Virus record (IMG/VR): IMGVR_UViG_3300010160_000112
Location: 1-38,109 of that record
Length of the DNA: 38,109 nt
Source of the DNA: a virus
Reading direction: 5' to 3' (one strand)
In this document: positions 1 to 38,109 of the stretch, in pieces
Numbering within the stretch: the first letter of the stretch is position 1
Layout of the letters: each line of letters opens with the position of its first letter
The notes under the pieces: model-generated
Databases searched by the model: none
What the model was told of the DNA's origin: nothing
Seen by the model: the letters and a program-made list of their open reading frames with translations, nothing else
Position numbers and translations under genes: made by a program

Positions 1-334
1 CATTGGGGAGGTGGCGTGCCCATTCAACACTTTGAATATCACGCTTGTCCCTATAATATAGATCGTGATTTCCAGGAATAAAATATACTCGATCAAAGTT
101 GGCATTCATGTGCTCCAGCGCCCGTAGGCTGTAGTTTAGTGTGACGATGTTGAGACTGGCTCTATTGTTGTGCCAATCGCCAAGGAACATGCAGGTCTCA
201 CAACCTTCCGACTTGGCTTTGGCAGTGGCCCACTTCACAAAGTTTAGGCAGTCCTCATTGTGAGTGGTGCTGTTGGATTTCAGTCCAAAGTGGATGTCAG
301 TGAAGATCGCGGCTTTGCGGAATAGATTAGTCAT
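1..334 (-). CDS. 47: gp47-like recombination nuclease subunit (SbcD/Mre11-type metallophosphoesterase), 3' part outside window
   Basis: Partial gene: the N-terminal 111 residues are present and the rest lies beyond base 1. The calcineurin-like phosphoesterase metal motifs are visible in order: D13-x-H15 (TDIHFG), G52-D53 followed by WHNN, and G88-N89-H90-D91. In T4, gp47 pairs with the gp46 ATPase to form the Mre11/Rad50-like complex that resects DNA ends for recombination-dependent replication; that role is inferred here from family and gene order. The start ATG at 334 overlaps the stop of the upstream SGNH-like gene by 8 bases (ATGACTAA), so translation is probably coupled. The neighbouring gp55 supports the T4-type 46-47-55 core arrangement. 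Confidence is high for the phosphoesterase and good for the gp47 assignment. Confidence 0.88.
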   Translation of the reverse strand, partial: MTNLFRKAAIFTDIHFGLKSNSTTHNEDCLNFVKWATAKAKSEGCETCMFLGDWHNNRASLNIVTLNYSLRALEHMNANFDRVYFIPGNHDLYYRDKRDIQSVEWARHLPN

Positions 335-23000: not shown

Positions 23001-26000
23001 CTGGAAATACCTTGCGTGTGAACAACATGGATGTGGTAGTACCTACTACATGGAGCAGTCTGAGTTCTTACAATAAGAATGATGTAGTTTATAATTTGTC
23101 AGGTAGCACATACACAATTTATGTGGCATTGCAAGCGGTTCCTGTTTCTACTGCATTGAGCAATGCAAGTTATTGGTCTGTGGTTACTACAACCACAACC
23201 GCAGCCAGTATCTATGTCCGTGCGTTGGCCGCACAGATAAACAGCACAGTACCAAATGTCAGTGCCACGGTTGATGCCAGTGGCTATCTGACCATAGCTG
23301 TTAAGAATAGCAATTCTGCAACTGCGTTTAATAAACTGCAAGTGGCACCTGGGTCAGTTGGCACAGCATTTACCACATTGGCATTCAAGACATTTGTGTT
23401 TACACAAACCATACTCAGTCCTTATCCAGTAAAATATGCTGCGTTTGGATACAGTGTGAGCATCGCAGATACTGCTACTACACTAGCAGTAGGTGCACCG
23501 AATGGTACTTTGTATTTGATAACCGTGTTTGATGATGGTACCACAGACTTTGATGCCGATAGTACTACATTTATCACCACCGTAAACAATAGTGGTGCTG
23601 TATACACTTATGATTACTTGCCCGGAGCAAACATGAGTGTGTCAAATCCTGGCAACTTTGTATTTGGTCAGCAAATAACCAATAGTGAGATCAGCGAACT
23701 TGATTCGTTTGGTGCTGCAATCACTTACATAGATGGTGTATTGGTAGCAGGCGCGCCAAACAATGACGTTGGCGACAGCTCAGCAAATTACGGTCGGGTG
23801 TTTGTGTTTGAAAATCCAGACCGTCTGAGTGCCTGGAAAGTGATACGCCAGCAACAGCCAGCAGTGGATGTGAGATTGCTCAATGGGGTATTCACATACG
23901 ATCGGATTACCAGTGCTACTACGCAATTCTTTGACTTCTTTAATCCGTTACAAGGCAAGATATTAGGCGCTGCAAGACAAAATATTGATTACATCAGTGC
24001 GCTTGACCCTGCAAATTACAATATTGGACCGACCAGCATCAATGGTGCTACCTGGTGGTCAGGGCATGTGGGAGAAGTATGGTGGGATACCAGCACGGTG
24101 AGATTTATCGATCCCAATCAAGATGACGTAACCTACGCCAGTCGACGTTGGGGACAAATTTTTCCTGGCAGTACAGTAGAAGTATATCAATGGGTCTTGA
24201 GTGCTGTGCCACCATCTAGTTACACCGGCCCCGGAGTACCGTATAGTACCACAAGTTATAGTATCAATTCACGACTTGACCGGGACGGCGTATTTGCCAC
24301 TGAGTATTATTTCTGGGTACGAGGAATAACTACCACGGCTGTTCAGCAAGGAAAAACACTCAGCATAGCAACAGTAGCACAATACATTGAAAATCCTCGC
24401 GCCAGTGGCATAACTTACATCGCACCAATCAATGCCAGCACCATTGCTTTGTATAATGCTGCTGAATACATAGTGGCATCGGATACTGTGATTAACATAT
24501 CATTTGACCGAGAAGCCACTGAGAGTAATGTACACACTGAATACGAATTAATAGCCGAAGGCAAGCCCGACGCGTTCTTGAGCACTAATCTTTACCGTAA
24601 ACTGCAAGACAGCTTCTGCGGAGTTGACACATTTGGTAACAATGTGCCCGACCCTAATCTCGGACCAGCTGAGCGTTACGGGGTGCAATTTAGACCTCGT
24701 CAGAGCATGTTCACCAACAGATTCAGTGCTCTTGAAAACTATCTCACAAGAGTTAACAATGTGTTAGCCCGGTTTCCGATCTCAGAAAGCCGCAGTTTTA
24801 ATCTGCTTAACAGCGCCGAACCGGAACCTAGTGCAGCCACCGGCCTGTGGAATTTACGTGTGGCTAACTTGGAAATCTTAGGGTTCCAAAATATCTACAC
24901 TGTGCCAATCGGTTATCGTTATCTAGTGGTAACCGACAGTGATAATCGCGGTCTATGGACGATTTACACAGTAACAGATAGTGACCAAGTTGCTGGTGAC
25001 CGCCTGTTGAGATTGTCATTTGTGCAAGGATACAATACTGCTGATTATTGGAGTTATATTGACTGGTACCTTCCAGGATACAATTCCAGCAGTAAAGTTC
25101 TAGCAGAAATTACCAATACTGCAGGGTTGAGTACATTAGATGTACCAGTGGGCAGCAGTGTACGAATCACTGCTAATGCACAAGGTAAATGGGAAATATA
25201 TCTGTTGAGTGACACTGGTTGGGATCGTGTAGGATTACAAGATGGCACTATTGCATTCTCAGCTGAGCTATGGGATTATCAATTAGGCAGATTTGGGTTT
25301 GACATTGAAGTTTTTGACGCACAATATTATGATCAAGAACCTGTGAAAGAAACAAGAAAAATTATTCAAGCCATCAATGAAGAACTATTGATCGACGATC
25401 TTGCCATTGAGAGAAATCGTGCATTGATCTTGATGTTTAATTATGTGTTGAGCGAATTCTCTGCACCTGACTGGTTGGTTAAAACCAGCTTGATTGATGT
25501 GGATCACCGCATACGAGATCTTGCTCCGTATCAAAATTATCGTCGAGATAATCAAGAGTTTGTGATTGATTACATAAAAGAAGTCAAGCCATATCATGTT
25601 CAATTGCGCGAATTTAATCTGCGATATAATGGACTGGATCAATTCCTTGGAAGCCTTACTGATTTTGATGTGCCGGCCTACTACAACACTTCGCTGACTG
25701 TTCCCCAATACACCAGTCCTATATTATTACCTTACGAGCACGGTTCTTCAGATATTTCTAACTTCCTAAGTGATTTGCCGGCCAACAGCACGGTGTGGAA
25801 CACTTTTCCATACACTCAGTGGTATAACAATTATCTATTGACACTGACAGATGTATCAATGGTCGACAATGGAACTGGTTATACTGAACCTCCGTTGGTG
25901 ATAATTGGAACTGCGTGGACTAGTAATACTCCAGTGACTATTAATCAACAATTATTTTACGCTAATAATAATGTGACTAATCTGTATACTGTGGTAGCAG

Positions 26001-26233
26001 ATGGCATAACCGGCATGGATCCGCCAACTTTTACAACCGCTGGCAACCAAACTGATGGTACAGCTACACTGACGTATACTGGGCTAGCGGCGCAGGCCAC
26101 TGCGGTGATCAACAGCCTAGGTCAGGTAGTAGCGGTCAATGTAACTTATTCTGAAGCGTATATCGATCGACTCCTGAGATATCATTCACAGGCGGTGGCG
26201 GCATTGGGTCAGGCGCTAGAGCGTATGCTCTGA
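14000..26233 (+). CDS. giant multi-domain baseplate/tail protein in gp7 position (4077 residues, apparently truncated by a frameshift)
   Basis: A 4077-residue ORF. The N-terminus (LLPQIFQTDTNKQFLAATLD, ESEYYTWDPFVEFDSFVNFSQYFWLPSGPD) is shared with the large proteins found after gp6 in aquatic T4-like phages; direct similarity to T4 gp7 is not visible. Domains seen: a cupredoxin-like domain (about 211-299); several VNG...DY beta modules (near 1045-1090, 1275-1315, 2600-2640, 2760-2800, 2880-2930); a conserved mixed core (about 1590-2200, containing FWNSSSYPFAVMHVLAVTQTA); a carbohydrate-binding-like module (1994-2034); and a seven-blade FG-GAP propeller (2403 to about 3275) with modules inserted between blades. 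Translation ends abruptly in a Gly-rich module, and the matching remainder continues in another frame, so the 3' end is probably not native. Expected location is the outer baseplate. Confidence 0.75.
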   Translation: MATIRSVDLLPQIFQTDTNKQFLAATLDQLTQEPQFKKTQGFIGRTVGPGVNPNDTYVVEPDATRRDYQLEPGVVSLVPDTNTIKNAITYPGINDAVGFSGGDSTRPDRLYESEYYTWDPFVEFDSFVNFSQYFWLPSGPDPVDVAASTIPTTDNFIVDRENGVYTFSGVTGNDPVIDLVRGGSYTFQVAQNTKETVNYRVGNSGTAAYLIDGLSNPALTLARGNTYVFNLVFNGDFPFWIKTAPVTGVGDVYNTGVTRNGALTGLVTFTVPQDAPDTLYYASQTQLNMQGTLNIIDGTPGTGAGFWIQASPGVNGRDPSSPNISSRDVLGVFNNGTDLGTVTFNVPLKTAQNFYYSLTPFGVNPSGTIITPVDLICDLKFDEINNKQVDEFLAVYGGIDGTANLNGRTLVFTEPVTDAEAGGWQVTTFFDPLEESSANNFLVGSFDTTFFSQTTDVAPEDRYQLWQINYVTVNNYTFMSLSKISDIPALNKFTARYGAQYSNTQWYKTAAGLFERIPLLTAAQDTLYYQDGTDPEIFGRIRLIDQSANTTLYIDSILGQPNYTSPTGVVFTNGLKVKFIGDVVPSTYASGTFPLVITAAQAGSNYLTTESTANLYVNEQIIFTESIGGILPGTYYIQSIAANGIQFSISTKKGGGAYPLQPGTVTGVTATVNSDLEYYVSGVGTAIELLLVDIFVTPESYLVDANDSTIYVEPGSTDYLTIDRASRDRNAWSRSNRWFHSDVINATATYNNATATFDNNYRAKRPIIQFRPNIKLWNMGTEGKDPVDIIDFSQTDAFSNVVGSTEYTVDGYTFIDGSRVVFAADADQSVKNKIYVVSFIVPDTVAPLISQPIINLTPAEDGEVLTDQCTICLNGSTTAGVTFWFDGTAWIEAQQKTSVQQAPLFNVYNPDGYSFGDRAVYQSSTFSGSKLFSYAVGDTNIIDPILQFPLQYLNINNVGDIVFNNDLYKDTFLYVVDNASVTLDISSGSVREYGTRATYQRLIGWQTAITTSQTYQQFKFEYTGATLKLDVKVNAPVNNTPAIKIYVGSVFQAPGNYSYITGANSTVITLNNTYVPGDIIEVLVLSDQPSATAFYQVPINLQNNPLNGNSPEFTLGTIRTHYESICQNLLTIQGPVNGSNNTRDLGNIVPYGLTILQQSAPMTLAGYFLRSTDYNIFASLSFAAREYNKYKYQLLDAVTQQTIGFESIGQVLDTAIQDVTLGRVESQPFYWSDMLPFGAVYTTTTYNIEYTITDSFDTVQVYNYRTANYLGMNVYLNGVLLTRDRDYVVAADGPRVTILQDLTFGDQLIFQEYSATYGSFAPNTPTKLGLYPAFVPQVITQKASNGLVQVTQGHDGSITPLFNDIRDQVLLEFETRIYNNLKLDGNPVPLTIDDVLPGQFRDTGFTYAEITNILNQDFLSYVGANKLDFRAQDFRATNEFTWNYSGAQNKLNNTQNLLGAWRGINRYFYDTEQPQYTPWEMLGFSKQPLWWEDTYGPAPYTGDNLVLWDDLAAGYVADPIQPYFRPEYARPASIGSSDEPPRGGIWGAGPYPSLLPIIPTGDEGQLLSPAQSVMGTYASAQFQKSWAPGDGSPVEASFWNSSSYPFAVMHVLAVTQTAKFFALFADRDLYRYNEEFGQYLLNDRYRLNANGIEVYGNGVSKASYIDWIVDYNRQAGINSTDELTADLANLDVRLCYRMASFSDKQYIKLFTEKSSPNSTNTALLIPDQSYNLLLYKNQPFDRTSYSAVVIQIVPGGYAMYGYNTSQPYFNIIASKSTGQLRTITSGGATVQVPTFYTDTIVQIPYGFIFANETSVCDFFLSYGKYLEKQGIVFTDRANGYTLDWLQMCNEFLYWSQQGWGENALLNLNPLAGKLSVTREQAVVDSIVVQAIDNVLLDQNNRELPTRNLNITRIDNTFTCEPLTTQTLSFIDLKYTTHEHMIVLDNQSVFGDLIYQPITGARQSRLVLVAANTDNWTGQINTPGFVLNLNNVEEWSGLKRYTKGQIVKYKNVYWSALNIIQPSNRFDFNDWVQSDYTQIELGLLPNLANKANQLANSYNINSANLESDNDLLSYGLIGFRPRQYMAALNLDDVSQLNVYRQFLGSKGTILSAELFSNANLGKEAADYSIYENWAVLRSTYGANANRSFVELRLNKAYLASDPSVVQVVLPQQVSAADQQILLSDVWKQSYKLTSTDFLPTTTTLPTDIGLPTAGYVNLNDADITVFDVNDLGNIAANLDAIAVGTSIWMAKINDYDWNIYRAQSVPGTIQHVCDNLDGTSRVIFSLPHGLSVGDTLIIKFFDTEVNGVYEVMSVPNITTVNIAFQFTSRRTVADGIGLGFTLQTMRVAQASDVINLPYADDIAAGSIVWVDNNGADLWEVIQKQEVFSGSTQISPILLDAGEQYGSAVAQANSRSALFVGSPRYGFGTGTESGAVYVYVKNSGDTYSPVSPIADADGILTLGATGVRAYGNAVDFGNQTWAVVGASKSLGPASQTNNGYAAIVYRDPVLGQPGINPFTNWQLLTLPGTTTTTTPGAGEFGYSVTMSPDERWAYIGAPGLNTVYAYGQVPWQDQYVSVLGNGITKQFTIASEIQINNSSQLRVTFNGQPQISGYSIDAAFDKVTFTTAPAAGVLVKFQRISSQQLDAQTYYEVPQTSTSGSGVGAKFTIIRVRGQVGQPGSTTGGVGATSLGSGYAVGNTITIAGASFGGTNNITLTITSIGTGGTLGNFTIAYTAPALTTVFSLNEYFFTATNIYSFSVQVNGVLYRPNIDYSFSTATQDLTFTGTGPPSGTVIIVTAMSYFTYVNSFTVAGLGGSDRFGHSVSCTTDGRQIMVGTPYSTESSQVEAGSVYVFDRNVQRFIYGEDGSTVTFTLLGTPVAPISVIVNNVFLTNQADGVVGAANTFYWNGANTVTINADLQYGDVIEIETNQFSQIQEIAQNTVANFSNFGQSIDICSNNCSLYVGVPQSSEQVYKGGVVERDVNQSRVYGTTTSTAANAVLTAGNTLRVNNMDVVVPTTWSSLSSYNKNDVVYNLSGSTYTIYVALQAVPVSTALSNASYWSVVTTTTTAASIYVRALAAQINSTVPNVSATVDASGYLTIAVKNSNSATAFNKLQVAPGSVGTAFTTLAFKTFVFTQTILSPYPVKYAAFGYSVSIADTATTLAVGAPNGTLYLITVFDDGTTDFDADSTTFITTVNNSGAVYTYDYLPGANMSVSNPGNFVFGQQITNSEISELDSFGAAITYIDGVLVAGAPNNDVGDSSANYGRVFVFENPDRLSAWKVIRQQQPAVDVRLLNGVFTYDRITSATTQFFDFFNPLQGKILGAARQNIDYISALDPANYNIGPTSINGATWWSGHVGEVWWDTSTVRFIDPNQDDVTYASRRWGQIFPGSTVEVYQWVLSAVPPSSYTGPGVPYSTTSYSINSRLDRDGVFATEYYFWVRGITTTAVQQGKTLSIATVAQYIENPRASGITYIAPINASTIALYNAAEYIVASDTVINISFDREATESNVHTEYELIAEGKPDAFLSTNLYRKLQDSFCGVDTFGNNVPDPNLGPAERYGVQFRPRQSMFTNRFSALENYLTRVNNVLARFPISESRSFNLLNSAEPEPSAATGLWNLRVANLEILGFQNIYTVPIGYRYLVVTDSDNRGLWTIYTVTDSDQVAGDRLLRLSFVQGYNTADYWSYIDWYLPGYNSSSKVLAEITNTAGLSTLDVPVGSSVRITANAQGKWEIYLLSDTGWDRVGLQDGTIAFSAELWDYQLGRFGFDIEVFDAQYYDQEPVKETRKIIQAINEELLIDDLAIERNRALILMFNYVLSEFSAPDWLVKTSLIDVDHRIRDLAPYQNYRRDNQEFVIDYIKEVKPYHVQLREFNLRYNGLDQFLGSLTDFDVPAYYNTSLTVPQYTSPILLPYEHGSSDISNFLSDLPANSTVWNTFPYTQWYNNYLLTLTDVSMVDNGTGYTEPPLVIIGTAWTSNTPVTINQQLFYANNNVTNLYTVVADGITGMDPPTFTTAGNQTDGTATLTYTGLAAQATAVINSLGQVVAVNVTYSEAYIDRLLRYHSQAVAALGQALERML
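14630..14895 (+). other. cupredoxin-like domain lacking copper ligands (within giant protein)
   Basis: Residues about 211-299 follow the cupredoxin-like pattern common in phage virion proteins: NPALTLARGNTYVFNL, a PFWIKTAP strand, GVTRNGALTGLVTFTVPQDAP, then LYYASQTQLNMQG. Copper-binding relatives have HPFYIKT and LYYQCxxHxxM. Here the ligand positions are F237 (for His), S283 (for Cys), Q286 (for His) and M289, so only Met is kept and metal binding is unlikely. Confidence 0.6.
21206..23830 (+). other. seven FG-GAP repeats: predicted integrin-alpha-like beta-propeller with inserted modules
   Basis: Seven blade signatures appear in the giant protein at residues 2403 (YGSAV...ALFVGSPR), 2468 (YGNAV...WAVVGAS), 2538 (FGYSV...WAYIGAP), 2818 (FGHSV...IMVGTP), 2947 (FGQSI...LYVGVP), 3149 (FGYSV...LAVGAP) and 3237 (FGAAI...LVAGAP), most followed by a G-x-V-Y-V-F strand. 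Seven is the number needed to close an FG-GAP propeller. Spacing is tight for blades 1-3 and 6-7 but larger for 3-4 (280 residues), 4-5 (129) and 5-6 (202), where other beta modules are inserted. The calcium-type DxDxDG loops of integrins are not evident. Confidence 0.72.
26150..26158 (+). other. apparent one-base frameshift joining the two giant ORFs
   Basis: The 4077-residue frame reads VNVTYSEAYIDRLL and stops at 26233. The frame one base back is open from 26155 and reads SVYRSTPEISF then TGGGGIGSG, the natural ending of the same Gly-rich module (compare NGTGYTEPPLVII about 90 residues earlier). Adding one G after 26153 (tctgaagc to tctggaagc) restores SGSVYRSTPEISF exactly in register. 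There is no X-XXY-YYZ slippery heptamer, so a missing base (sequencing or real) is more likely than programmed shifting. Confidence 0.72.
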
Positions 26234-29161: not shown

Positions 29162-29311
29162 ATGTCAACTACAACGCCAACTAAGCCAGCTACTCCTGTA
29201 CCCGCCCAGCGGCCAAACAAACCCAACGAAAGCGGAACAATTTCGGTGCAAGCACATATGAGGATTTTTGATCCTAAAACACAAAAAACCTATGTGGAGG
29301 GACGAGCATGA
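29162..29311 (+). CDS. small protein (49 aa) resembling the N-terminus of the downstream virion protein
   Basis: ATG at 29162, 49 codons, TGA at 29309-29311. Residues 1-25 are Thr/Pro/Lys-rich and probably disordered. Residues 27-49 (ISVQAHMRIFDPKTQKTYVE) line up with residues 8-30 of the next gene (CKIEGFVKIHDPNSGKILVD): the shared pattern is I-x-x-x-x-x-(R/K)-I-x-DP-x-x-x-K-x-x-V. The stop falls where the homologous segment of the neighbour continues into its main domain, and the stop overlaps the next start as ATGA. It may be a partial duplication or a small partner protein of the neighbour. Coding is supported by the fit between two genes (19-base gap before, 4-base overlap after) and by the similarity itself. 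No ribosome site is obvious. Confidence 0.68.
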   Translation: MSTTTPTKPATPVPAQRPNKPNESGTISVQAHMRIFDPKTQKTYVEGRA

Positions 29312-29913
29312 TCACGCCTGGGCTATGTAAAATTGAAGGGTTTGTAAAAATACACGATCCTAATTCTGGCAAAATTCTAGTAGATAAAAAGAACGCTATC
29401 CATTATGAAAACATTTCGATCGCGATGGCGCAGACTCTGAGCAACAGGGATCTAGGATATATCTATCAGATGGCATTTGGCAACGGCGGCAGTTCGGTTG
29501 ATCCCACTGGAGTGATCACATATTTGCCGCCGAACACAACAGGGCAAAACGCAGATTTGTACAATCAAACCTATCAGAAAGTAGTAGATGATAACTCAGC
29601 TGCTGATACTGATCCTGTGAATAACAAAATGACCGTGCTGCATACATCCGGTAATCTCTATACTGATATTCTGGTCAGTTGCTTACTGGATTACGGCGAG
29701 CCCCCTACCCAGCAAGCGTTTGACAATTCAACCAATTTTAATGGTGAATATGTGTTTGATGAACTAGGGCTCAAATCTTGGAACGGCGCATCAGACAATT
29801 TACGATTGATCACTCATGTGATTTTTCACCCGGTGCAAAAAAGTCTAAATCGGCAAATACAGATTGACTACACCTTACGAATCCAGACATTGACTAACAT
29901 CAATGCTGTATAA
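29308..29913 (+). CDS. conserved virion structural protein of aquatic T4-like phages, function unknown
   Basis: A 201-residue protein with the sequence blocks IEGFVKIHDPNSGKILVDKKNA, AFGNGGSSVDPTGVITYLPP, NTTGQNADLYNQTYQKVV, SCLLDYGEPP, EYVFDELGLKS and HVIFHPVQKSLNRQIQIDYTL. These are recognisable as a family recurring between the large gp7-position gene and the fibre genes in aquatic T4-like phages. The location next to wedge genes would suit a gp8-like or fibre-attachment role, but no similarity to T4 gp8 is visible, so the role is not assigned. The start ATG overlaps the stop of the 49-residue gene; AGGGACG lies 6 bases upstream. The stop codon is inside a TATAAATA late box. Confidence 0.65.
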   Translation: MITPGLCKIEGFVKIHDPNSGKILVDKKNAIHYENISIAMAQTLSNRDLGYIYQMAFGNGGSSVDPTGVITYLPPNTTGQNADLYNQTYQKVVDDNSAADTDPVNNKMTVLHTSGNLYTDILVSCLLDYGEPPTQQAFDNSTNFNGEYVFDELGLKSWNGASDNLRLITHVIFHPVQKSLNRQIQIDYTLRIQTLTNINAV

Positions 29914-29916
29914 ATA
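29909..29916 (+). promoter_or_regulatory. exact late promoter box TATAAATA before tail fibre gene
   Basis: TATAAATA is identical to the T4 late consensus and overlaps the stop codon of the previous gene (GTATAA). It lies 25 bases before the next ATG, leaving a leader of about 20 bases with CAGGAAC and AGG. It would raise or decouple expression of the tail fibre genes from the giant operon. Confidence 0.6.
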
Positions 29917-29941: not shown

Positions 29942-31954
29942 ATGGCATATACAATTAATCTAACCGACGGTACAGTTTTTGCAACTATTGCAGATGGCAC
30001 CGTCAACACTGCTAGTAGCATGACGCTGGTAGGCAAAAACTATGCCGGCTATGGTGAATTTTTAGATGAAAACTTCATCCACGCACTGGAAAATTCATCG
30101 AATACTAGCGCACCCGGGTCGCCGCTTACTGGCCAACTATGGTGGGATAAGACCAATGCATTGATGAAAGTGTACAACGGTACAGCTTTTAAAGTCATGA
30201 CTGGATCTACTAGTTCAGCAAGTGCGCCTAGTAATGTCATTGCTGGAGATTTATGGTGGGATACTACCAACGCACAATTGAAAGTGTACAACGGTGCTTC
30301 CTGGACCGTGGTTGGACCAGCTTTTACCTCTGCTGAAGGTACCGCAGGTGCTGTGCCCGAAACAATCACCGACAGTGGAGCCACTCCGCATTACGTGACC
30401 AGTTTGTATGTAAACAATACCCGTGTTGCTATCGTGAGCAAGGACTCGAGTTTTACTCCGTCAGCACCAACTTTTACCACATTTCCTACCATATACAATG
30501 GTATCACTTTGTACAATGTCGGGTCTCCTGTATTTGCAGGCACAGTCACTAACGCAGCATTGTTGGACAATCTGGACAGCACCGACTTCATGCGAGCCAC
30601 TGCCAACACATCCACCACCGGTACATTGGCAGTATTAAACAACTTTGGATTTACCGTAGGGTCGGCCAATGTATTCTCAGTGACCACAACGTCTACTGAT
30701 GCCAACGTCAAGAGCGCAATCTCCAATGGTAACTTGACACTACAGGCCAACGTGGGCGGTACCACTTATAATGTGGCACAGGTTCTCGGAAGCACTGGTG
30801 TATTTGCTGTGTCAAATGCAATGACTGCCGGTACCACAGTATCCGCAGTGGGCAATATCACCGGAGGCAATCTAAGAACCGGCGCACAGATCAGTGCTAC
30901 CGGTAACATCACAGGCGGAAATGTTATTTCTGTTGCTGCTGTGAGTGGTGTATCTTTGGTATCTTCGGGCAACGTAGATAGTGGTAACTTGCGTACAAGT
31001 GGATTGATCAGTGCAGCGGGCAATATTACCAGTGCAGCCAATGTAGCAGGCACATTCTTCCTGGGCAACGGTAGTCAACTTACTGGTCTGAGTTTGGGTG
31101 TTAGTGTTACTAAGTTTGTTAACGGCACCAGTGAAGGTAACGTGGGTGCCACCAACGGCAACATCAACTTTAACGTGGCCGGCGTAAGCAATGTGGTAGT
31201 GATTGACACAACTACTTTGTATGCAAACGTACTGAGCGCACAAAGCATCACAAAATCTGGAACCAACGCTATTGGTAATATCGGATCTGTTACTAGCTTT
31301 TTCAATACCGTATTTGGTAATGTGTACAACGGTACGGTTGTTAGTATGGCAGGTAATGTCACCGGCGGCAATATCACAACCGGTGGACTTGTCAATGCCG
31401 GAACAACTGTAAGTGCTACTGGTAATATCACCGGCGGTAACCTGATCACTGCTGGGTTGCTCAGCACATCCAGCATCACCAAAACTGGTAGCAATGCAGT
31501 AGGTAACATTGGTAGTTCCAGCAACTATTTCAATCAAGTGTTTGCCACAGCTACCACAGCATTGTATGCTGACGTTGCCGAACGCTTTGCAGCCGATGAA
31601 GTATTAGAACCAGGTACAGTAGTTGAACTAGGCGGTATCAATGAGATCACTAGATCCATAACTGATCTTAGCGAAAATGTATTTGGAGTTATCAGTACCA
31701 GACCAGCATACACCATGAATGGCGGAGCAGGAGAAGATTCTACTCATCCTAAAGTAGCAATGACCGGACGTGTGCCAGTCAAAGTCATTGGTGTTATCCG
31801 TAAAGGAGATCGATTGGTATCTGCAGGATCGGGGTTAGCAAGAGCAGCTAAGACAGGGGAAGCTACTGCATTTAATGTGATTGGACGAAGTCTAGTTGAC
31901 AAGATCACCCAGGATTCAGGTACAATTGAAGCGATAGTAACTATCAAGAATTAA
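29942..31954 (+). CDS. tail fibre-like protein with tandem repeats and a peptidase-G2-like C-terminal domain
   Basis: A 670-residue protein. Residues 1-60 (AYTINLTDGTVFATIADGTV, TLVGKNYAGYGEFLDENFIH) are the N-terminal virion-attachment domain common in aquatic phage fibres. Two copies of a WWD module follow (LTGQLWWDKTNALMKVYNG at about 61 and IAGDLWWDTTNAQLKVYNG at about 100). The middle (about 300-510) has GNITGGNL-type repeats expected to make a trimeric beta-structure. Two SITKxGxNAxGNIGS segments lead to LYADVAERFAADEVLEPGTVVELGG (about 541), the start of a C-terminal domain found on many phage fibres and resembling the Peptidase_G2 autoproteolytic chaperone family; cleavage is not shown. 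Likely job: host recognition or fibre shaft. It has its own late promoter box. Confidence 0.75.
   Translation: MAYTINLTDGTVFATIADGTVNTASSMTLVGKNYAGYGEFLDENFIHALENSSNTSAPGSPLTGQLWWDKTNALMKVYNGTAFKVMTGSTSSASAPSNVIAGDLWWDTTNAQLKVYNGASWTVVGPAFTSAEGTAGAVPETITDSGATPHYVTSLYVNNTRVAIVSKDSSFTPSAPTFTTFPTIYNGITLYNVGSPVFAGTVTNAALLDNLDSTDFMRATANTSTTGTLAVLNNFGFTVGSANVFSVTTTSTDANVKSAISNGNLTLQANVGGTTYNVAQVLGSTGVFAVSNAMTAGTTVSAVGNITGGNLRTGAQISATGNITGGNVISVAAVSGVSLVSSGNVDSGNLRTSGLISAAGNITSAANVAGTFFLGNGSQLTGLSLGVSVTKFVNGTSEGNVGATNGNINFNVAGVSNVVVIDTTTLYANVLSAQSITKSGTNAIGNIGSVTSFFNTVFGNVYNGTVVSMAGNVTGGNITTGGLVNAGTTVSATGNITGGNLITAGLLSTSSITKTGSNAVGNIGSSSNYFNQVFATATTALYADVAERFAADEVLEPGTVVELGGINEITRSITDLSENVFGVISTRPAYTMNGGAGEDSTHPKVAMTGRVPVKVIGVIRKGDRLVSAGSGLARAAKTGEATAFNVIGRSLVDKITQDSGTIEAIVTIKN
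30846..31470 (+). repeat. GN(I/V)TGGN-type tandem repeats in the fibre shaft
   Basis: At least six copies of a 17- to 24-residue unit of the form SATGNITGGNLxTxGLI occur in two clusters (30846-31060 and 31340-31470) separated by an unrelated segment. DNA is also repeated (for example ggtaatatcaccggcggtaa-like tracts), making this a site prone to recombination or misassembly. Confidence 0.7.
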
Positions 31955-31968
31955 AACAGGAATAGACA

Positions 31969-32952
31969 ATGACTTATTCAGCAGGCGGATTAATCCAGGC
32001 AACAGACTACAACGGATTTGTTAGCACAACAGCCGGAGCCAATATCAATGACATCTGGGGCGCTGGATCGGGCGACAAAGGGTACGGGCAAACTGCCGTT
32101 GGCACTGTTGCTGCTGCTGGCACAGTGACTGCCACACAATGGGCCAGCTTGGTCAATACTTTGAGCAGTTTAGGTAGCCAGACCAACACCACTCTTACTG
32201 CAAGGTCGGCTCCCACTGCTGGAACCACGATTGCTATCTTGGCAGCAGTCAATACAGATCTCACCAATGTTACCACCAACAGGGCCAATGCTGCTGCTGT
32301 GGGCGCACAATACACAGGATGGACCGGAACCAACTCCAAAACAGCCGGTACATCGGGTGCCGCCTGGACCATCACATTCACCAACACTGTGACATTTGCC
32401 AGTTCAAGTGCTGCCCGTTATTTCTTCAATGGAGGCGGCCTGATCAAACTGCAAACCAGCAAAACTTCAACTGGTCTAACCGGCGATCCAGAATGGAATG
32501 ATTTGTCCAGCACATTATGTGGTCAGATCTATTTCAGCGGAATAGCAGCCAGCCACACCATCGCAGGTGTTTCTTATACCGGAACTACCAAAATCGGCGG
32601 TACAGGGACTCCTACCACACTGAGCACAGCCACAGGATATTACGCATTAACCCCGGGAGGCGCAGCCACTATCATCTACAAACAGTTTGCAGATACAGCA
32701 CCTTACACAGCAAACTACATTCAAACCTCAGTGGCCTTGGATGCCACATCGGCAATACTTACATTCACTACACTTTGGTCTGCTAATGATTCTGGACCAG
32801 GCAATCCCGATCCAATATCCGGCGGTACCGCAGCGGTGGCCGCTACTCCTGGTACTGCTCCATGTACTATCTGTACATATACCCCACCTAGTTCTACCTA
32901 TTTGACCACTGCAAGTTGGGGAACTCCAACTGTGGCTGCCACCACAACTTAA
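31969..32952 (+). CDS. virion structural/fibre-associated protein, last gene of the late operon
   Basis: A 327-residue protein. The N-terminus (YSAGGLIQATDYNGFV, then WGAGSGDKGYGQTAV and ATQWASLVNTLSSLGSQTN) is a module seen in many aquatic phage structural proteins. The central part (SKTAGTSGAAWTITFTNTVT, ARYFFNGGGLIKLQTSKTST, TTLCGQIYFSG-like region) is beta-rich with Gly/Thr/Ser bias, suggesting an adhesin-like or fibre-tip protein. Only three Cys residues are seen, two in a CTIC pair near the C-terminus. It starts 14 bases after the fibre gene with AGGAA upstream, and is followed directly by an intrinsic terminator. The function is inferred from position and composition only. Confidence 0.6.
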   Translation: MTYSAGGLIQATDYNGFVSTTAGANINDIWGAGSGDKGYGQTAVGTVAAAGTVTATQWASLVNTLSSLGSQTNTTLTARSAPTAGTTIAILAAVNTDLTNVTTNRANAAAVGAQYTGWTGTNSKTAGTSGAAWTITFTNTVTFASSSAARYFFNGGGLIKLQTSKTSTGLTGDPEWNDLSSTLCGQIYFSGIAASHTIAGVSYTGTTKIGGTGTPTTLSTATGYYALTPGGAATIIYKQFADTAPYTANYIQTSVALDATSAILTFTTLWSANDSGPGNPDPISGGTAAVAATPGTAPCTICTYTPPSSTYLTTASWGTPTVAATTT

Positions 32953-32954
32953 TC

Positions 32955-32982
32955 GTAAAGGGCCCAAAAGCCCTTTACTTTT
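32955..32982 (+). terminator. intrinsic terminator ending the structural operon
   Basis: A perfect 9-bp stem GTAAAGGGC / GCCCTTTAC with loop CCAAAA is followed by TTTT, two bases after the stop codon of the last structural gene. It is nearly symmetric but the U-tract favours rightward termination. Confidence 0.85.
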
Positions 32983-32992
32983 GATTGCATGT

Positions 32993-33007
32993 CGTGTAGA
33001 ATACACG
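32993..33007 (+). promoter_or_regulatory. CGTGTA-GAA-TACACG inverted repeat touching the start of the accessory cassette
   Basis: A perfect 6-bp inverted repeat with a 3-base centre ends one base before the ATG at 33009, where a ribosome site would be expected; none is seen. It could be an operator for a dimeric protein, a hairpin affecting initiation, or part of a promoter (TAGAAT, 32997-33002, resembles a -10 hexamer but lacks a well-placed -35). Confidence 0.35.
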
Positions 33008-33008
33008 T

Positions 33009-33314
33009 ATGGATACCAATAACTTAATTGCTCATGCTCGCTCTAGATTCAATCACGAATCTGCTAGACGCCTGCTCAAAGAAAAATATCAAGCCCGTAT
33101 GTTATTCGCTCACGCCAGTGGTATGTGGCGTGCTGGCCCTGAACTCTTGGTATTGTTGGCCACGGTGCCGCCGGGTGATGCAGTGATCTTAGACTTGTAC
33201 GAAAACCCAGTGCAAGTCAATCCCGAACAACTGCGCGGTATAGCCATGCAACACTGGCAAGAACAAATGAATGCCTGGTTGATAGAGCACGAACAACTGA
33301 ACAAAAAAAGATGA
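33009..33314 (+). CDS. conserved small phage protein, function unknown
   Basis: A 101-residue basic/amphipathic protein: N-terminal helix (LIAHARSRFNHESARRLLKE, KYQARMLFAHASGMWRAGPE) then LLVLLATVPPGDAVILDLYENPVQVN and a C-terminal helix with QEQMNAWLIEHEQLNKKR. The MWRAGPELL and LDLYENPVQV blocks recur in small proteins of aquatic T4-like phages that sit just after the tail genes, but no activity is known. It is the first gene of the accessory cassette, after the terminator, and its stop overlaps the next start as ATGA. Confidence 0.65.
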   Translation: MDTNNLIAHARSRFNHESARRLLKEKYQARMLFAHASGMWRAGPELLVLLATVPPGDAVILDLYENPVQVNPEQLRGIAMQHWQEQMNAWLIEHEQLNKKR

Positions 33315-34156
33315 CCACTGGTGCATTGATATTTGCATTCAACAATGAAAAAACTGACTATGTGGCCATAGCAGCTTGGTCGGCACGCAATATACATAGA
33401 CATCTTGGAATTCCGGTGGCTGTGGTCACCAACCAGGAAAATCATAATGAATTATCTATATTTGACCAAGTGATCTTTGCAGAGCCGGCCTCGGGCGGCA
33501 CAAGGAATTTTGAAGATTACGGATCCAACGTGACCTGGCACAATGCCAGCAGACCCGATGCATACAATCTCACACCTTGGAACAATACCTTGTTGTTGGA
33601 TGCAGACTACGTAGTAGCCAGCAATCAATTACGCCATGTTTGTATGAACAATAGAGATTTGCAAGCCTACCCAAGATCAATGGATGTACATGGCAATCAC
33701 AACTTAGATTCTTTTGGGAACCCGTTGATGGATATGTTTTGGGCCACGGTGGTACAATTTCGTAAATGTACGCAAGCTCAATACATATTTGATTGCATGA
33801 ATATGATCAAAAAAAATTGGCAGCATTACAGAGATATCTACCACATATACAGCAGCACTTATCGCAATGACTATTCACTCAGTATAGCATTAAATATCCT
33901 AAATGGGCATGTACCACACGCTAATTACAATTCAATCTTGGGATCATTGACGAATGTATATCCATCTAATGCACTGACAGAGATAGATCAAGATTGTTAT
34001 CGCATTGCTTGGGCAGCCGCCGACGGAAAAAAGCATCATGTGGATCTAGCGAATCAGGATTTGCATGCCATGGGCAAAAGAGATTTAGAGGTCATAGTTG
34101 AAAATCATAGAAGAGCAAGGCTATCTAATAGCAGCCTGGAACTCGCCCACAGTTGA
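33311..34156 (+). CDS. glycosyltransferase-like protein (GT-A type fold suspected)
   Basis: A 281-residue protein. It opens with a Rossmann-like strand (GALIFAFNNEKTDYVAIAAW), then SARNIHRHLGIPVAVVT, and NNTLLLDADYVVAS with D97-A98-D99 placed as the metal/nucleotide-sugar binding DxD of GT-A enzymes. YRNDYSLSIALNILNG follows, a pattern often seen in glycosyltransferase acceptor loops (D-E/Y-x-x-L-x). No membrane segment. It overlaps the preceding gene (ATGA) and runs 59 bases into the next gene. Substrate unknown; typical phage uses would be decorating a virion protein or altering a host surface sugar. Alternative: an inactive nucleotide-sugar binding relative. Confidence 0.6.
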   Translation: MTTGALIFAFNNEKTDYVAIAAWSARNIHRHLGIPVAVVTNQENHNELSIFDQVIFAEPASGGTRNFEDYGSNVTWHNASRPDAYNLTPWNNTLLLDADYVVASNQLRHVCMNNRDLQAYPRSMDVHGNHNLDSFGNPLMDMFWATVVQFRKCTQAQYIFDCMNMIKKNWQHYRDIYHIYSSTYRNDYSLSIALNILNGHVPHANYNSILGSLTNVYPSNALTEIDQDCYRIAWAAADGKKHHVDLANQDLHAMGKRDLEVIVENHRRARLSNSSLELAHS

Positions 34157-34871
34157 TTATATCAACTGTGCAAAGTCATTAGTGCAAACACTAAAACACT
34201 GGCATCCTGATGCTAGGGTTTGTTTGGTCACGGATACAGACATCACGGATCCGGCATTTGACCATGTACGGGTGATCACACGGACCAATCTCGATAATCC
34301 TTACGCCGATGATTGGCAAGTATTCTATCAATCGCCATTCCGTGAAACCGTCAAATTAGAAGCTGACATGTGGATCACCAGTTCAATTGATCATTGGTGG
34401 AACATGTTTCGCAAACGCGATTTGGCCATAAGCACAGGATGCAGAAACTGGCAAGATCAACACAGCACAGCAAGAAACTATCGCCAAGTATTTGATGCGA
34501 ACAATCTGCCTGATGTATATAACGCTATCACATATTGGAGATTGAGCCGGACTGCAAAAGAGTTTTTTGATCTAGTGCGAAATATATTTGAGAACTGGAC
34601 AGAGTACCGCAAGCTGTTGAAATTTCCGGATGAAGTACCATCAACTGATCTAGTGTATGCTGTAGCAGCACACATAATTGGTCCAGAGCTGGTGACGTTA
34701 CCATTTGCTACCTATCCTAAAATTATTCATATGAAACGACATCATGCCGGCACCCAGACAGAAAACTGGATGAACGAACTAATCTGGGAATGGGATCATG
34801 GCAACCTACGGGTACAGACCGTAGCGCAATCGGGAGCATTTCACTATCATGTCAAACCAAGCAATAACTGA
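34098..34871 (+). CDS. second glycosyltransferase-like protein (TTG start)
   Basis: A 257-residue protein. An in-frame stop (TAG 34095-34097) immediately precedes codon 1, and the first in-frame ATG (codon 91, ADMWIT) is too far inside, so TTG 34098 with AGAGG 6 bases upstream is the most likely start. The order is GYLIAAWNSPTVDYINCAKS, HPDARVCLVTDTDI, ETVKLEADMWIT (E88-A89-D90 at the DxD place) and PSTDLVYAVAAHIIG, with a late PKIIHMKRH. This parallels the preceding protein, so the two may be distant paralogues. The 59-base overlap with the upstream gene is long for this operon. Function by fold resemblance only. Confidence 0.58.
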   Translation: MKIIEEQGYLIAAWNSPTVDYINCAKSLVQTLKHWHPDARVCLVTDTDITDPAFDHVRVITRTNLDNPYADDWQVFYQSPFRETVKLEADMWITSSIDHWWNMFRKRDLAISTGCRNWQDQHSTARNYRQVFDANNLPDVYNAITYWRLSRTAKEFFDLVRNIFENWTEYRKLLKFPDEVPSTDLVYAVAAHIIGPELVTLPFATYPKIIHMKRHHAGTQTENWMNELIWEWDHGNLRVQTVAQSGAFHYHVKPSNN

Positions 34872-35199
34872 ATCGGAGTTTTGGGCTGCGTTAGCAGCCA
34901 TGCCTGCGCCTCAGCCTATTTTCTTTAGATTGTACTATGACGATCAAGGGCATATATTATTCTACAGCATGGAAGATCTTCCAGGTACATACATTGACAT
35001 TGATGCTGAGACTTTTGCGCGGTCCCACACCAACATGAGAGTGAAGGATGGAAAGTTGATTGAGATAGCACCGACCACCAGTGCAAAACTCATTCCCGGA
35101 GACACAGGCACACCTTGTGATCCCACTGATGTGAGCATAGTAGTGTCAGCGCAGCAACCCAATACCAAATGGAGCAAACGAACATATGAATCAAATTGA
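34849..35199 (+). CDS. conserved phage protein of unknown function
   Basis: A 116-residue protein with blocks IFFRLYYDDQGHILFYSMED, LPGTYIDIDAETFA, NMRVKDGKLIEIA, and GTPCDPTDVSIVV. The same order of blocks occurs in small proteins of aquatic T4-like phages next to glycosyltransferase-like genes; no known domain is evident. It overlaps the upstream gene by 23 bases and the downstream gene by 14, consistent with one transcript. A small beta-rich accessory or binding protein is plausible. Confidence 0.6.
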   Translation: MSNQAITESEFWAALAAMPAPQPIFFRLYYDDQGHILFYSMEDLPGTYIDIDAETFARSHTNMRVKDGKLIEIAPTTSAKLIPGDTGTPCDPTDVSIVVSAQQPNTKWSKRTYESN

Positions 35200-36127
35200 A
35201 AATGAAGTGTGGACAGATATAGCAGACTTAGATTGTATCTACCTCACCTACGACGAGCCACAACGCGAAGAGTTTTGGGTGAAGATAAAAAACATGATCC
35301 CATGGGCCAAACGTGTGGATGGCATCAAAGGGTCAGATGCTGCACACAAAGCAGCCGCAGCAGCCAGTGACACTGAACGATTTATTCTAGTAGATGGCGA
35401 CAACTTGCCATCTGCAGATTTCTTCAACAAAACATTGCAATTCCCCACAGCTGAATACGAGCAAGCAGTATTCCGGTGGCGTGCTAGAAATCATGTGAAT
35501 GGACTCATGTACGGCAACGGAGGCATTAGTAGTTGGACACGCACATTTGTGAATGCTATGCGTACTCACGAAGCTACAGATGGCCGCACAGAGACACAGG
35601 TGGAGTTCTGCTTTGATCCGCTGTACTGGGCCATGCATGATTGTTACAGCACAACATATCCTGCGCAGTCTCCATTCCATGCGTGGCGTGCAGGGTTCCG
35701 AGAAGGTGTGAAGATGTGCCTAAACAAAGGTGCTAGACCCACGGTAGAAGAGTTCAAGAATCAAGTGTTAAGAAATCTCGATCATTTGACCATCTGGCAC
35801 AACATTGGGTCTGATGTGGAAAATGGAGAATGGTGCATGGCCGGCGCCAGGCAAGGCACATACATGACCATGCTGACCAACTGGGATCACAAGTTAGTAC
35901 AGGATTTTGATGCGTTAGCTGAAATTTGGGAAACAGTGAAAGACTCCCAGCCACGCATCCTGAGCAATCTACTAGGCCCTGATCTTGGTACCCAATTAGA
36001 CTTGCCAATGGCCATCCTAGAGTCCGAGCAAAGTGCATTTTTCAAATATCATTATCGCAGCAATTGGCACAACCGTGGTGCTATGGTCAGAGAGATAGAT
36101 ATAATACGCCAACAAGAAGGATGGTAA
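35186..36127 (+). CDS. third glycosyltransferase-like protein with DGD motif
   Basis: A 313-residue protein. CIYLTYDEPQREEFW and VDGIKGSDAAHKAAAAASDT lead to RFILVDGDNLPSADFF, where D70-G71-D72 sits at the end of a hydrophobic strand as in GT-A nucleotidyl-sugar enzymes. YGNGGISSWTRTFVNAM and QVEFCFDPLYW follow; the C-terminus (ESEQSAFFKYHYRSNWHNRG) is also a family hallmark in aquatic phages, where it is usually left unnamed. Soluble, no signal peptide. The start is set by ATG 35186 inside the preceding gene; the stop is separated by a single base from the oxygenase gene. Activity and substrate are inferred, not shown. Confidence 0.58.
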   Translation: MNQIENEVWTDIADLDCIYLTYDEPQREEFWVKIKNMIPWAKRVDGIKGSDAAHKAAAAASDTERFILVDGDNLPSADFFNKTLQFPTAEYEQAVFRWRARNHVNGLMYGNGGISSWTRTFVNAMRTHEATDGRTETQVEFCFDPLYWAMHDCYSTTYPAQSPFHAWRAGFREGVKMCLNKGARPTVEEFKNQVLRNLDHLTIWHNIGSDVENGEWCMAGARQGTYMTMLTNWDHKLVQDFDALAEIWETVKDSQPRILSNLLGPDLGTQLDLPMAILESEQSAFFKYHYRSNWHNRGAMVREIDIIRQQEGW

Positions 36128-36128
36128 T

Positions 36129-36653
36129 ATGCTTAAAATGATCAATTTAGACTATGATTTTTCAAAGATTTTGTCTGCTGACTATTCTCAGCATGAAGGT
36201 AGCTGTATCAGCCACCAAGTTTATGAACTAACAGATATCCATGATCAGTATGGAGGATTTCCTACTACCTATTGTTATGAAAATACCAAAATACATCAAC
36301 TATGGTGGGAAAAAGACGATGTTGATTTTGTTGAGATTGGACGACAATTAGGAATAGAAGTAATTACGGTCAGTAGTATTTGTCAGCCCCCGGGCTGTAT
36401 GATACCGTTGCACCGAGATACCTTTTACCAGATCACCCAAAGATATCCAAATAGAACGGAACTCAAAATTCGAGCCAACATCTATCTTGAAGATTGGAAG
36501 TTAGGACAATTTCTTCAATATGACGATGAGATAAATGTTAAGTGGAGAGCCGGGGATGGAATAATGTGGGATTCTTCACACCTACATCTATCAGCCAATG
36601 CAGGTATGCAAAACAAATACACATTGCAAGTATCGGGATTTCTGTTACAATGA
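36129..36653 (+). CDS. 2OG-Fe(II) oxygenase-like protein (aspartyl/asparaginyl hydroxylase type)
   Basis: A 174-residue double-stranded beta-helix type protein. The iron triad is visible as H95-x-D97 (PPGCMIPLHRDTFYQI) with the distal His at 151 or 153 (WDSSHLHLSANAG). RANIYLEDWKLGQFLQYDDE and KYTLQVSGF complete the usual strand pattern; a basic residue for 2-oxoglutarate (K163 region) is plausible. Such enzymes hydroxylate protein side chains or small molecules using 2-oxoglutarate and oxygen; many aquatic T4-like phages carry them with unknown targets. AAGGATG precedes the start, and the stop overlaps the next ATG (ATGA). Lying among glycosyltransferase-like genes, it could create or act on a modified residue. 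Confidence 0.7.
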   Translation: MLKMINLDYDFSKILSADYSQHEGSCISHQVYELTDIHDQYGGFPTTYCYENTKIHQLWWEKDDVDFVEIGRQLGIEVITVSSICQPPGCMIPLHRDTFYQITQRYPNRTELKIRANIYLEDWKLGQFLQYDDEINVKWRAGDGIMWDSSHLHLSANAGMQNKYTLQVSGFLLQ

Positions 36654-37600
36654 AATTCAGAATCAAAACCGCTGATACTTTTATTTGGAATCTGTCAGAA
36701 TTGGTTGATTTTCTTTTAGAGAATCAACATCAGGATATTGTCATAACCAATGGTTCTGAAGGATGCTGTTCAAGAACGGTGGGGTTGTATAAATGGCTGG
36801 ATAAATTTAAATTTAGCAATGTTACAATAGAAACCAGTAACATATTAGAAATTCACGATCGGTATAACATCACTTGTATATTGCCTTGGAAATTTCTAGA
36901 TGTAGAACGGCCAATTGATCAGATTTATCATACATGGAATCGTCAGTCAATTTTTGGAACTTTATACGGACGTCCTTTATGGCACAGGATAGGTATTGCA
37001 TCTCATCTATTATCGTCGCATAAGTCTATCAGTGAGATTGGTTGTTTGGTTAATCCTACAGATTCGGATCAACGAGAACTATTTGAGATTCTTGAGCTTT
37101 GGAAATATGATCCTGAAAGTTTAATTAAATTTTCTAATGCATGTTTTGAATTTCCGTGCTGCCATCAAGATGTGGATCAATACACACCCGGTGCAACATT
37201 GACCGATGGATTTGTTAAACAAACTGAAAGAGTATATAAGAATTTCCTAATTGATGTAGTGGCAGAAACTTATACCGGTGGTGATTGCTTTTTCGTAACT
37301 GAAAAAACGGTTAGACCTATGCTGTTAAAAAAACCAATGATTTTAATGGGTTCAAAAGATTGTCTAAATTATCTAAGGCAGATGGGATTCAGAACCTTTG
37401 GAGACTTTTGGGACGAAACATATGATGGTTACGAGGGCCGTGAGAGATATTTGCGGATATTGGATCTGATAGATTGGATAGCCGGGCACAGTTACGATCG
37501 GTTGGAGACCATGTATTGGGATATGCAATATACATTAGATCATAATTATAATCTTGTGATGACTCAAGGATACAACAAGACTATAACAAAACTATCATGA
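36650..37600 (+). CDS. putative glycosyltransferase-like protein with FxTEKTVRPMLLKKP motif
   Basis: A 316-residue protein starting at ATG 36650, which overlaps the oxygenase stop as ATGA; the frame is open another 36 codons upstream but that part only shadows the oxygenase gene. The C-terminal half has AETYTGGDCFFVTEKTVRPM followed by LLKKPMILMGSKDCLNYLRQ and FRTFGDFWDETYDGYEGRERY. F-x-T-E-K-x-x-R-P/x is reminiscent of the donor-binding region of GT10 fucosyltransferases and exostosin-type enzymes, where a conserved Lys/Arg and a Pro-rich strand contact the nucleotide sugar. The N-terminal half has no clear match. This family is common in aquatic phages and giant viruses without a tested function. 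Confidence 0.5.
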   Translation: MKFRIKTADTFIWNLSELVDFLLENQHQDIVITNGSEGCCSRTVGLYKWLDKFKFSNVTIETSNILEIHDRYNITCILPWKFLDVERPIDQIYHTWNRQSIFGTLYGRPLWHRIGIASHLLSSHKSISEIGCLVNPTDSDQRELFEILELWKYDPESLIKFSNACFEFPCCHQDVDQYTPGATLTDGFVKQTERVYKNFLIDVVAETYTGGDCFFVTEKTVRPMLLKKPMILMGSKDCLNYLRQMGFRTFGDFWDETYDGYEGRERYLRILDLIDWIAGHSYDRLETMYWDMQYTLDHNYNLVMTQGYNKTITKLS

Positions 37601-38109
37601 GCAAAAGTAATTTTCTATCCTCGGCCGAGCAGATGAAAAATGACCTTGGCCCGGCATTGTGCTTGGCTAAATGGAAACAGGTCAGCTTGCACTTGCCTAC
37701 TGGATTAAATAACTCATGCTATCACCCGCCGTTGCATTCAATTGATCCTGCTGCGATAGAGATCAATCCTGCTGCTCTGCATAATACCGCTCATAAAAAA
37801 TCTCAGCGCAAGATAATGCTACAGCAACAACGACCCAGTGAATGCAGTTACTGCTGGAACATGGAAGACCTGGGCAAGCTGAGCGATCGTCATTATAGAT
37901 CCGGTGAGCCGTGGGCTGCTGTGGATTTTGAACAGATAAAAAATTCAACAGGAGATGAAGATGTTGTTCCCAGTTATGTTGAAGTTAATTTCAATCATGC
38001 TTGCAATCTGCGGTGCAGTTATTGCAGCCCTCAGTTTAGTAGTTCATGGGCAGATGAAGTGTCTAGACTTGGTGCATATCCTACCCTGGTGCCTCATAAT
38101 GCTCCTGAG
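37597..38109 (+). CDS. twitch-domain radical SAM protein (3' end outside window)
   Basis: The N-terminal 171 residues are present. The radical SAM cluster motif CNLRCSYC gives C136-x3-C140-x2-C143, preceded by YVEVNFNHA as in the first TIM-barrel strand. Upstream is a region typical of the phage twitch-domain family: ALCLAKWKQVSLHLPTG, NNSCYHPP, NPAALHNTAHKKSQRKIML and RPSECSYCWNMEDLG, where C83 and C86 may contribute to an extra cluster or metal site. Family members use SAM and a 4Fe-4S cluster for radical chemistry, often on peptides or sugars; the phage substrates are not known. The start ATG 37597 overlaps the preceding stop (ATGA). It is the seventh linked gene of the accessory chain counted from 33311. 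Confidence 0.88.
   Translation, partial: MSKSNFLSSAEQMKNDLGPALCLAKWKQVSLHLPTGLNNSCYHPPLHSIDPAAIEINPAALHNTAHKKSQRKIMLQQQRPSECSYCWNMEDLGKLSDRHYRSGEPWAAVDFEQIKNSTGDEDVVPSYVEVNFNHACNLRCSYCSPQFSSSWADEVSRLGAYPTLVPHNAPE

Follow-up and report, generated by a model that had tools for sequence, protein, structure and literature searches.

IMG/VR virus record IMGVR_UViG_3300010160_000112 is a linear stretch of 38,109 bases, analysed here over its whole length (hereafter, the window). Its 3′ end is occupied by a cassette of eight consecutive genes coding for putative glycosyltransferases (GT), a 2-oxoglutarate (2OG)-Fe(II) oxygenase, a radical S-adenosylmethionine (SAM) protein and two conserved proteins (Table 1). 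As the original prediction had it, nearly all of these genes overlap: six of the seven junctions do so (by 4, 59, 23, 14, 4 and 4 nucleotides (nt)), and OX follows g5 after a gap of 1 nt. The most likely start of GTd is the ATG at 36650, because it forms an ATGA overlap with OX; the GTG at 36542, which heads the longest open reading frame (ORF), is disfavoured for the same reason. Of rSAM1, 171 codons are present before the cut at 38109, compared with 455 codons in its orthologue in one of the relatives (L019).

Table 1. Features of the cassette region and of related loci (window positions, except in the last row, which refers to other phages)
Feature	Position	Strand	Description
fib1	29308..29913	+	Conserved virion-locus protein 5′ of the cassette; phrog_11259; ~51-52% identity in cultured Atu_ph07 and Phosso
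TATAAATA	29909..29916	+	T4-type late promoter candidate before fib2; kept in relatives
fib2	29942..31954	+	Tail-fibre-like protein with GNITGGN-type repeat
fib3	31969..32952	+	Thr/Ser-rich appendage-like protein; last gene 5′ of the cassette; candidate substrate if a virion protein is the target
Hairpin	32955..32978	+	Intrinsic-terminator-like, after fib3; position kept in relatives
TTTACT-17-TAGAAT	32974..33002	+	σ70-type promoter-like site; -10 box ends 6 nt before g1 ATG; near-leaderless
g1	33009-33314	+	Conserved protein of 101 amino acids (aa), without family match
GTa	33311-34156	+	Predicted GT-A glycosyltransferase, glycogenin/GT8-like; LLLDADY; invariant D97xD99 and HxMGK
GTb	34098-34871	+	GT-A-like transferase, homologous to GTa; TTG start; KLEADM (EAD motif); phrog_1903
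g4	34849-35199	+	116-aa conserved protein, core member
g5	35186-36127	+	Putative GT2-like transferase; VDGDN (DGDN motif); core member
OX	36129-36653	+	Asp/Asn-hydroxylase-like 2OG-Fe(II) oxygenase; H95xD97...H153, K163; accessory
GTd	36650..37600	+	GT-B-like (T4 β-glucosyltransferase (BGT)/α-1,3-fucosyltransferase (FucT)/exostosin-like); accessory gene between g5 and rSAM; further paralogues downstream in relatives
rSAM1	37597..38109	+	N-terminal-twitch radical SAM protein, NF033640; gene cut by contig end
(CHxS)3-RxRR proteins	L220:18306-19226, L221:17098-17988, L225:7060-7620, L226:7025-7561		Four cultured phages; cupin-like gene present

Several genes 5′ of the cassette code for baseplate, tail or virion proteins, and a late σ factor gene is also carried in the window. 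The large baseplate wedge protein matches those of the cultured jumbo phages Phosso, Atu_ph07, PBECO4 and others at 31-34%, and the window represents part of the genome of a jumbo-type myophage of the T4 superfamily. Between the wedge gene and the fibre genes lies a single ORF of 4077 aa (14000-26233), and a giant structural protein gene is found at the same place in Phosso and Atu_ph07.

With GTa as a single query, 15 contigs were retrieved; a GTa profile retrieved 346 relatives and g5 at least 535. The best 80 of the 346 and the best 80 of the at least 535 were kept, and these 160 loci were collapsed to 106 groups by merging those with more than 20% of 31-mers in common. The conservation of gene order, which the original prediction had raised as a question, was borne out: fib3, g1 and GTa follow each other in every group, and the full order fib3-g1-GTa-GTb-g4-g5 is intact in 100; in the remaining six, the locus is 8.9-10.2 kb long and breaks off within the core. 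Eight contigs binned into metagenome-assembled genomes of marine or freshwater origin were also found, and the order GTa-GTb-g5-rSAM is present in four of the five that were examined. The distance correlation between GTa and GTb is 0.38 across the 87 of 106 groups that hold all eight genes; paralogues may be mixed in the set of first radical SAM genes behind g5. A tblastn search of 50,697 phage records gave no match in cultured phages for g1, GTa, g5 or GTd, one partial match for OX and, for GTb, 14 weak ACG-2014f matches at 24% identity, with annotated GT6, GT11 and GT25 genes nearby. At the fib1 position of PBECO4, the annotation lists virion and hypothetical genes and no such cassette.

The slot between g5 and the first radical SAM gene is variable. 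Among the 96 groups in which both genes are seen, 67 have none of the cassette families there; GTd occupies the slot in 24, two copies of GTd in one, OX together with GTd in three, and OX, GTd and two g5-like genes in one. OX is thus present in 4/96 groups, always with GTd, and is an accessory gene, not a member of the core. The original prediction had proposed that the oxygenase or the radical enzyme installs a group that the transferases then decorate. As a general pathway, this scheme fails, and we reject it because OX is so rare and sits in the variable slot.

The cassette was also predicted to follow the tail genes after a terminator, which is right, and a separate promoter sits between. 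Since the total numbers of terminator-like and promoter-like sites in a scan of the region between fib3 and g1 were no higher than in shuffled sequences, the hairpin and the promoter-like site rest on their conservation. A -10-like hexamer ending 5-7 nt before the g1 ATG is present in 101/106 groups, compared with a mean of 0.86 and a maximum of 3 in dinucleotide shuffles, and 66 groups have a TTTACT-like -35 box at 17 nt from the -10 box. At the fib1/fib2 junction, TATAAATA is found exactly in 63 of 101 groups (2.6 expected) and within one mismatch in 100 of 101 (32 expected); before g1, it is found in none of the 106. Because TATAAATA precedes fib2 and a σ70-type -10 box precedes g1, the tail-fibre unit resembles a T4 late unit in its control, whereas the cassette does not. 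A transcript from the promoter-like site, whose -10 box and the g1 start codon together span 32997-33011, would give g1 little or no leader. It follows from a separate promoter that the position behind tail genes does not by itself tie the cassette to the virion.

In a relative of 261,673 bases (G006), the sequence TRTATAAT followed by ATG after 5-7 nt precedes five ORFs of at least 50 aa, g1 and four others, where 0.25 would be expected. One of these near-leaderless sites stands before a 410-aa ORF that adjoins a TctA-like gene; a TctA-family transporter gene of this relative (L045:11809-13989, 4.1e-42) is adjoined by a possible solute-binding protein gene. Of 42 σ70-type sites of the form TT[TG]ACN-16..18-TATAAT in the same genome, 40 lie on the minus strand; many read GCTATAAT and have a start codon 24-32 nt downstream. 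The minus-strand genes apparently have a promoter class of their own.

None of the eight cassette proteins reached any family cut-off in a Pfam scan (OX and rSAM gave weak matches), and searches of PDB sequences with profiles of GTa, g5, GTb, GTd and OX returned no significant match. AlphaFold models cover two of the seven complete cassette proteins, GTa and GTd. The GTa model (predicted local distance difference test (pLDDT) 90.1; best Foldseek E 3.4e-7) superimposes on glycogenin-1 (3t7n_A) with Z 17.6 over 205 residues at 3.3 Å and on LgtC (1g9r) with Z 14.6; other GT-A enzymes also score below glycogenin. D97 and D99 of the DxD motif are invariant in 15/15 aligned sequences, as are H252, M254, G255 and K256 (HxMGK) near the C-terminus. 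GT8 enzymes carry a C-terminal HxxGxxKPW motif, of which HxMGK is not the full form; its histidine may correspond to the GT8 metal ligand. GTa is thus predicted from its model to be a GT-A glycosyltransferase of the glycogenin/GT8-like kind. It is named GT8-like and not a GT8 member because it has no significant Pfam GT8 match (no Pfam family at E<=1). GTb, which matches a family without functional annotation (phrog_1903), is by profile comparison a homologue of GTa (hhalign 97.8%, E 1.1e-12), its EAD aligning with the DAD of GTa.

For g5, a GT2-like transferase role is only a lead, because the matches of two of its homologues (L231 and L227) to GT2 Pfam families, PF13641 at E 0.0013 and PF00535 at E 0.0091, are both below cut-offs; profile comparison of g5 with GTa and with GTb found nothing. 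Thus, the glycosyltransferase-like character originally ascribed to four of the proteins holds for GTa, for GTb as its homologue and, at moderate confidence, for GTd, while g5 is only weakly GT2-like by sequence. L231:3051-4634 codes for a tandem g5 protein in which two g5-like domains are joined, and the second of these domains resembles a short free-standing phage protein at L228:12179-12853.

The GTd model (pLDDT 80.6) points with moderate confidence to a GT-B-like fold, with Z scores of 10.4 for T4 BGT, 10.0 for α-1,3-FucT and 9.6 for both exostosin EXT1/EXT2 and the phage HY126 glycosyltransferase; Foldseek alone gave a non-significant best E of 6.5e-3. The matches to T4 BGT and the HY126 enzyme are what one would look for if GTd were a BGT-like enzyme and the transferases glycosylated phage DNA, as in T4-like base glucosylation. 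We regard this as very improbable: the FucT and exostosin matches lie within 1 Z of T4 BGT, GTa and GTb are GT8-like, and GTd is an accessory that is absent from the slot in most groups.

H95, D97 and H153 of OX, presumably iron ligands, and K163 are invariant in 14/14 aligned sequences. The protein is called only Asp/Asn-hydroxylase-like because it scores 17.8 bits against PF05118, whose gathering score is 22.6. Of 25 loci retrieved with OX as the query, 19 are without the core, although many of those contigs are short. The window copy of rSAM1, cut by the contig end, matches N_Twi_rSAM (NF033640) with E 4.6e-39 and 134.6 bits, below the cut-off of 170, while its orthologue at L019:11469-12836, which has the motif CNLRCSYC, scores 316 bits. 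Matches above the cut-off were found in 11/11 relatives searched. In L019, five paralogues were read, all above the cut-off and with CxxxCxxC and GGEP motifs, interspersed with GTd-like proteins; the sources name no substrate for NF033640. Vibrio phage K566 has three annotated radical SAM genes (L222:13971-19460) that are distantly related to this set (24% to a G006 paralogue), and a PagP-like lipid A acylation gene is annotated ~5 kb from them.

Beyond the radical SAM proteins, carbamoyltransferase, DegT and epimerase genes were read in one relative, G006. Downstream of its cassette are two weakly GDSL-like proteins, putative hydrolases, and then a NodU/CmcH-type carbamoyltransferase (Carbam_trans_C, 2e-48); on the opposite strand are a DegT-type aminotransferase (1.3e-49), a nucleoside diphosphate (NDP)-sugar epimerase (1.6e-43) and a protein that is GT-like by eye. 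The joint presence of radical SAM protein, 2OG oxygenase and carbamoyltransferase resembles the S-SSM6a cluster, for which a decorated polysaccharide or a secondary metabolite was considered (PMC7824862). The product of the cassette might in the same manner be a small secreted molecule or a peptide with modifications, that is, a secondary metabolite or a product akin to ribosomally synthesized and post-translationally modified peptides (RiPP), with g4 or g1 as the precursor or carrier; g4 is a small core protein with a conserved cysteine and a conserved C-terminus. We think this improbable, since OX is missing from 92/96 groups and no short gene dedicated to a precursor was noticed. The last conserved residues of g4 overlap the g5 start codon, which is sufficient alone to explain their conservation, and the conserved C-terminus was therefore rejected as a reason to take g4 for a RiPP-like precursor.

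A different radical SAM locus is found in two cultured relatives. In Phosso and Atu_ph07, the homologues of fib1 and fib2 are followed by a cupin-like gene, a radical SAM/SPASM gene, a gene whose product has CHTSCHASCHSSRSRR or CHSSCHASCHNSRSRR at its C-terminus, and further radical SAM genes. In Atu_ph07, the product with this tail is AUZ94952. The best NCBIfam matches of the radical SAM/SPASM protein are PapB (7.6e-12), DynA (1.3e-11) and HxsB (3.3e-9), all below cut-offs. In Burkholderia phage FLC6 and Pseudomonas phage DT01, the gene that follows a related radical SAM gene codes for a protein with such a tail at its end. The phage proteins ending in (CHxS)3-RxRR are of several sizes (99-309 aa). 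A DNA pattern for this tail and a stop codon was found in at least 120 stretches in viral contigs. Among the 80 matches listed (loci L235-L314), it reads as an ORF end in 79 (99 ORFs), the end position being imposed by the pattern itself. In 51 of these 79, a related radical SAM gene lies within 3 kb on the same strand. We propose (CHxS)3RxRR as a candidate tag at the C-terminus of virion-locus proteins, which may mark them for modification by radical SAM enzymes. Virion mass spectrometry is reported for Atu_ph07 (PMC6102473). This locus shares with the window cassette its position after homologous fib1 and fib2 and its several radical SAM genes. It differs in having no homologue of a cassette protein and a (CHxS)3 C-terminal protein in place of the transferases; homology of the two cassettes was rejected, all hhalign probabilities being <=3.1%.

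These observations bear on the possibility that the tail appendage of the phage itself, fib3 or fib2, is the target of GTa, GTb, g5 and the radical SAM enzymes, which would glycosylate it or change it in another way for adhesion or shielding. We hold this to be possible and rank it second, because the core is always next to the tail-fibre genes in the sample and cultured relatives bear another radical SAM system there, directly after fib1-fib2, with what looks like a maturase/substrate pair including the CHxSCHxSCHxSRSRR-tailed protein. The strict co-inheritance with fib1 and fib3 and the Thr/Ser-rich composition of fib3 agree with it, as do partial distance correlations of 0.21 for fib3-GTa and 0.26 for fib3-g4 (both weak) in the 87 groups; virion glycans are mentioned for mycobacteriophages in the accessible text of PMC12619734. 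Speaking against modification of the tail are the cassette's own non-late promoter with a terminator in front, the lack of homology between the Phosso/Atu_ph07 cassette proteins and g1, GTa, GTb, g4, g5 and fib3 in profile comparison, and the sugar-nucleotide and amino-sugar enzymes of G006, which fit a polysaccharide at least as well. The fib3 cysteines are not conserved, which also counts against it, and fib3 was rejected as a cysteine-tag substrate for this reason. It seems to us rather unlikely that g1-GTa-GTb-g4-g5 and the tandem N-Twitch radical SAM enzymes form a fixed pathway that modifies the tail appendages by glycosylation and radical chemistry, in which case jumbo phages would have two unrelated radical SAM systems directly behind these tail-fibre genes, this one and the (CHxS)3-tag system found in Atu_ph07 and Phosso.

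We favour, with a probability of about 0.45, a glycan-building and tailoring locus that acts on the host envelope and corresponds, with its fixed core, to the host recognition cluster (HRC) of aquatic T4-like phages. The host envelope is preferred because of the separate non-late promoter, the sugar-supply genes and the published reading of analogous islands. Host RNA polymerase would transcribe the cassette independently of the late genes, and GTa, GTb and g5 would use host NDP-sugars to assemble, in the cytosol, a short glycan that does not vary. The enzymes of the variable slot (OX, GTd) and the radical SAM, carbamoyl and amino-sugar enzymes would add lineage-specific changes. The product would be put on the host envelope glycan, and the changed surface may exclude competing phages or released siblings.

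Several points weigh against an action on the host envelope. Host-surface variation is usually hypervariable, and a fixed core at a fixed place behind tail fibres in ~100 groups is less expected for it. The radical SAM proteins bear N-terminal auxiliary-cluster cysteines, and radical SAM enzymes with such cysteines often act on peptides. No lipid-carrier initiating transferase, flippase or polymerase was noticed among the genes read, no dedicated search having been made. The carbamoyltransferase, DegT and epimerase genes come from one relative, the latter two on the opposite strand, and the promoter class indicates that the cassette is transcribed as a unit of its own, not that it is expressed early.

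The analysis turns unnamed phage genes into a defined unit: a fixed core found in ~100 distinct groups of jumbo-type phage contigs, with a promoter of its own in front and a variable slot and radical SAM genes behind. With this unit, the substrates of multi-copy phage radical SAM enzymes become testable, and so does the question of whether such coding capacity serves the host surface or phage tails.

The original prediction knew of no described system that would explain the gene set. The kind of locus is in fact already known, since it is described in PMC7029224, as far as its accessible text goes, and in PMC7824862; for the fixed core, the promoter and the breadth of the cassette, no description was found in the open-access literature. 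Another lineage of aquatic jumbo phages has putative transferases in its core gene set (PMC12619734, in part), radical SAM and transferase genes occur in marine viromes (PMC7150976, in part), and the available portion of PMC11242549, on a related Sinorhizobium jumbo phage, makes no mention of radical SAM. The P-SSM2-type lipopolysaccharide clusters of jumbo phages and cyanophages hold multiple GT families and an NAD-dependent epimerase, and a second cluster of S-SSM6a holds carbamoyltransferases and 2OG oxygenases (PMC7824862). GT families, epimerase, carbamoyltransferase and 2OG oxygenase are thus shared with the loci studied here, whereas the word "radical" has no occurrence in the text of PMC7824862 and radical SAM genes are present in 11/11 relatives searched.

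According to the accessible text of PMC7029224, the HRC of pelagimyophages and cyanomyophages brings together tail-fibre genes, transferases among which GT8 is the best represented family, and radical SAM cassettes of variable occurrence in a large, non-syntenic island between VrlC and gp14, and is read as modifying the host O-chain against co-infection. As in the HRC described there, the phages concerned are T4-like aquatic myophages, the genes lie behind or among tail fibres, and several transferases are combined with radical SAM proteins. Unlike the HRC phages of that text, the phages with the cassette are, by their baseplate, jumbo-type relatives of Atu_ph07 and PBECO4, and the order from fib3 to g5 is fixed in almost all groups, only the slot after g5 varying. 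The cassette would therefore work like an HRC yet is not filed as one, because its core is syntenic and not hypervariable.

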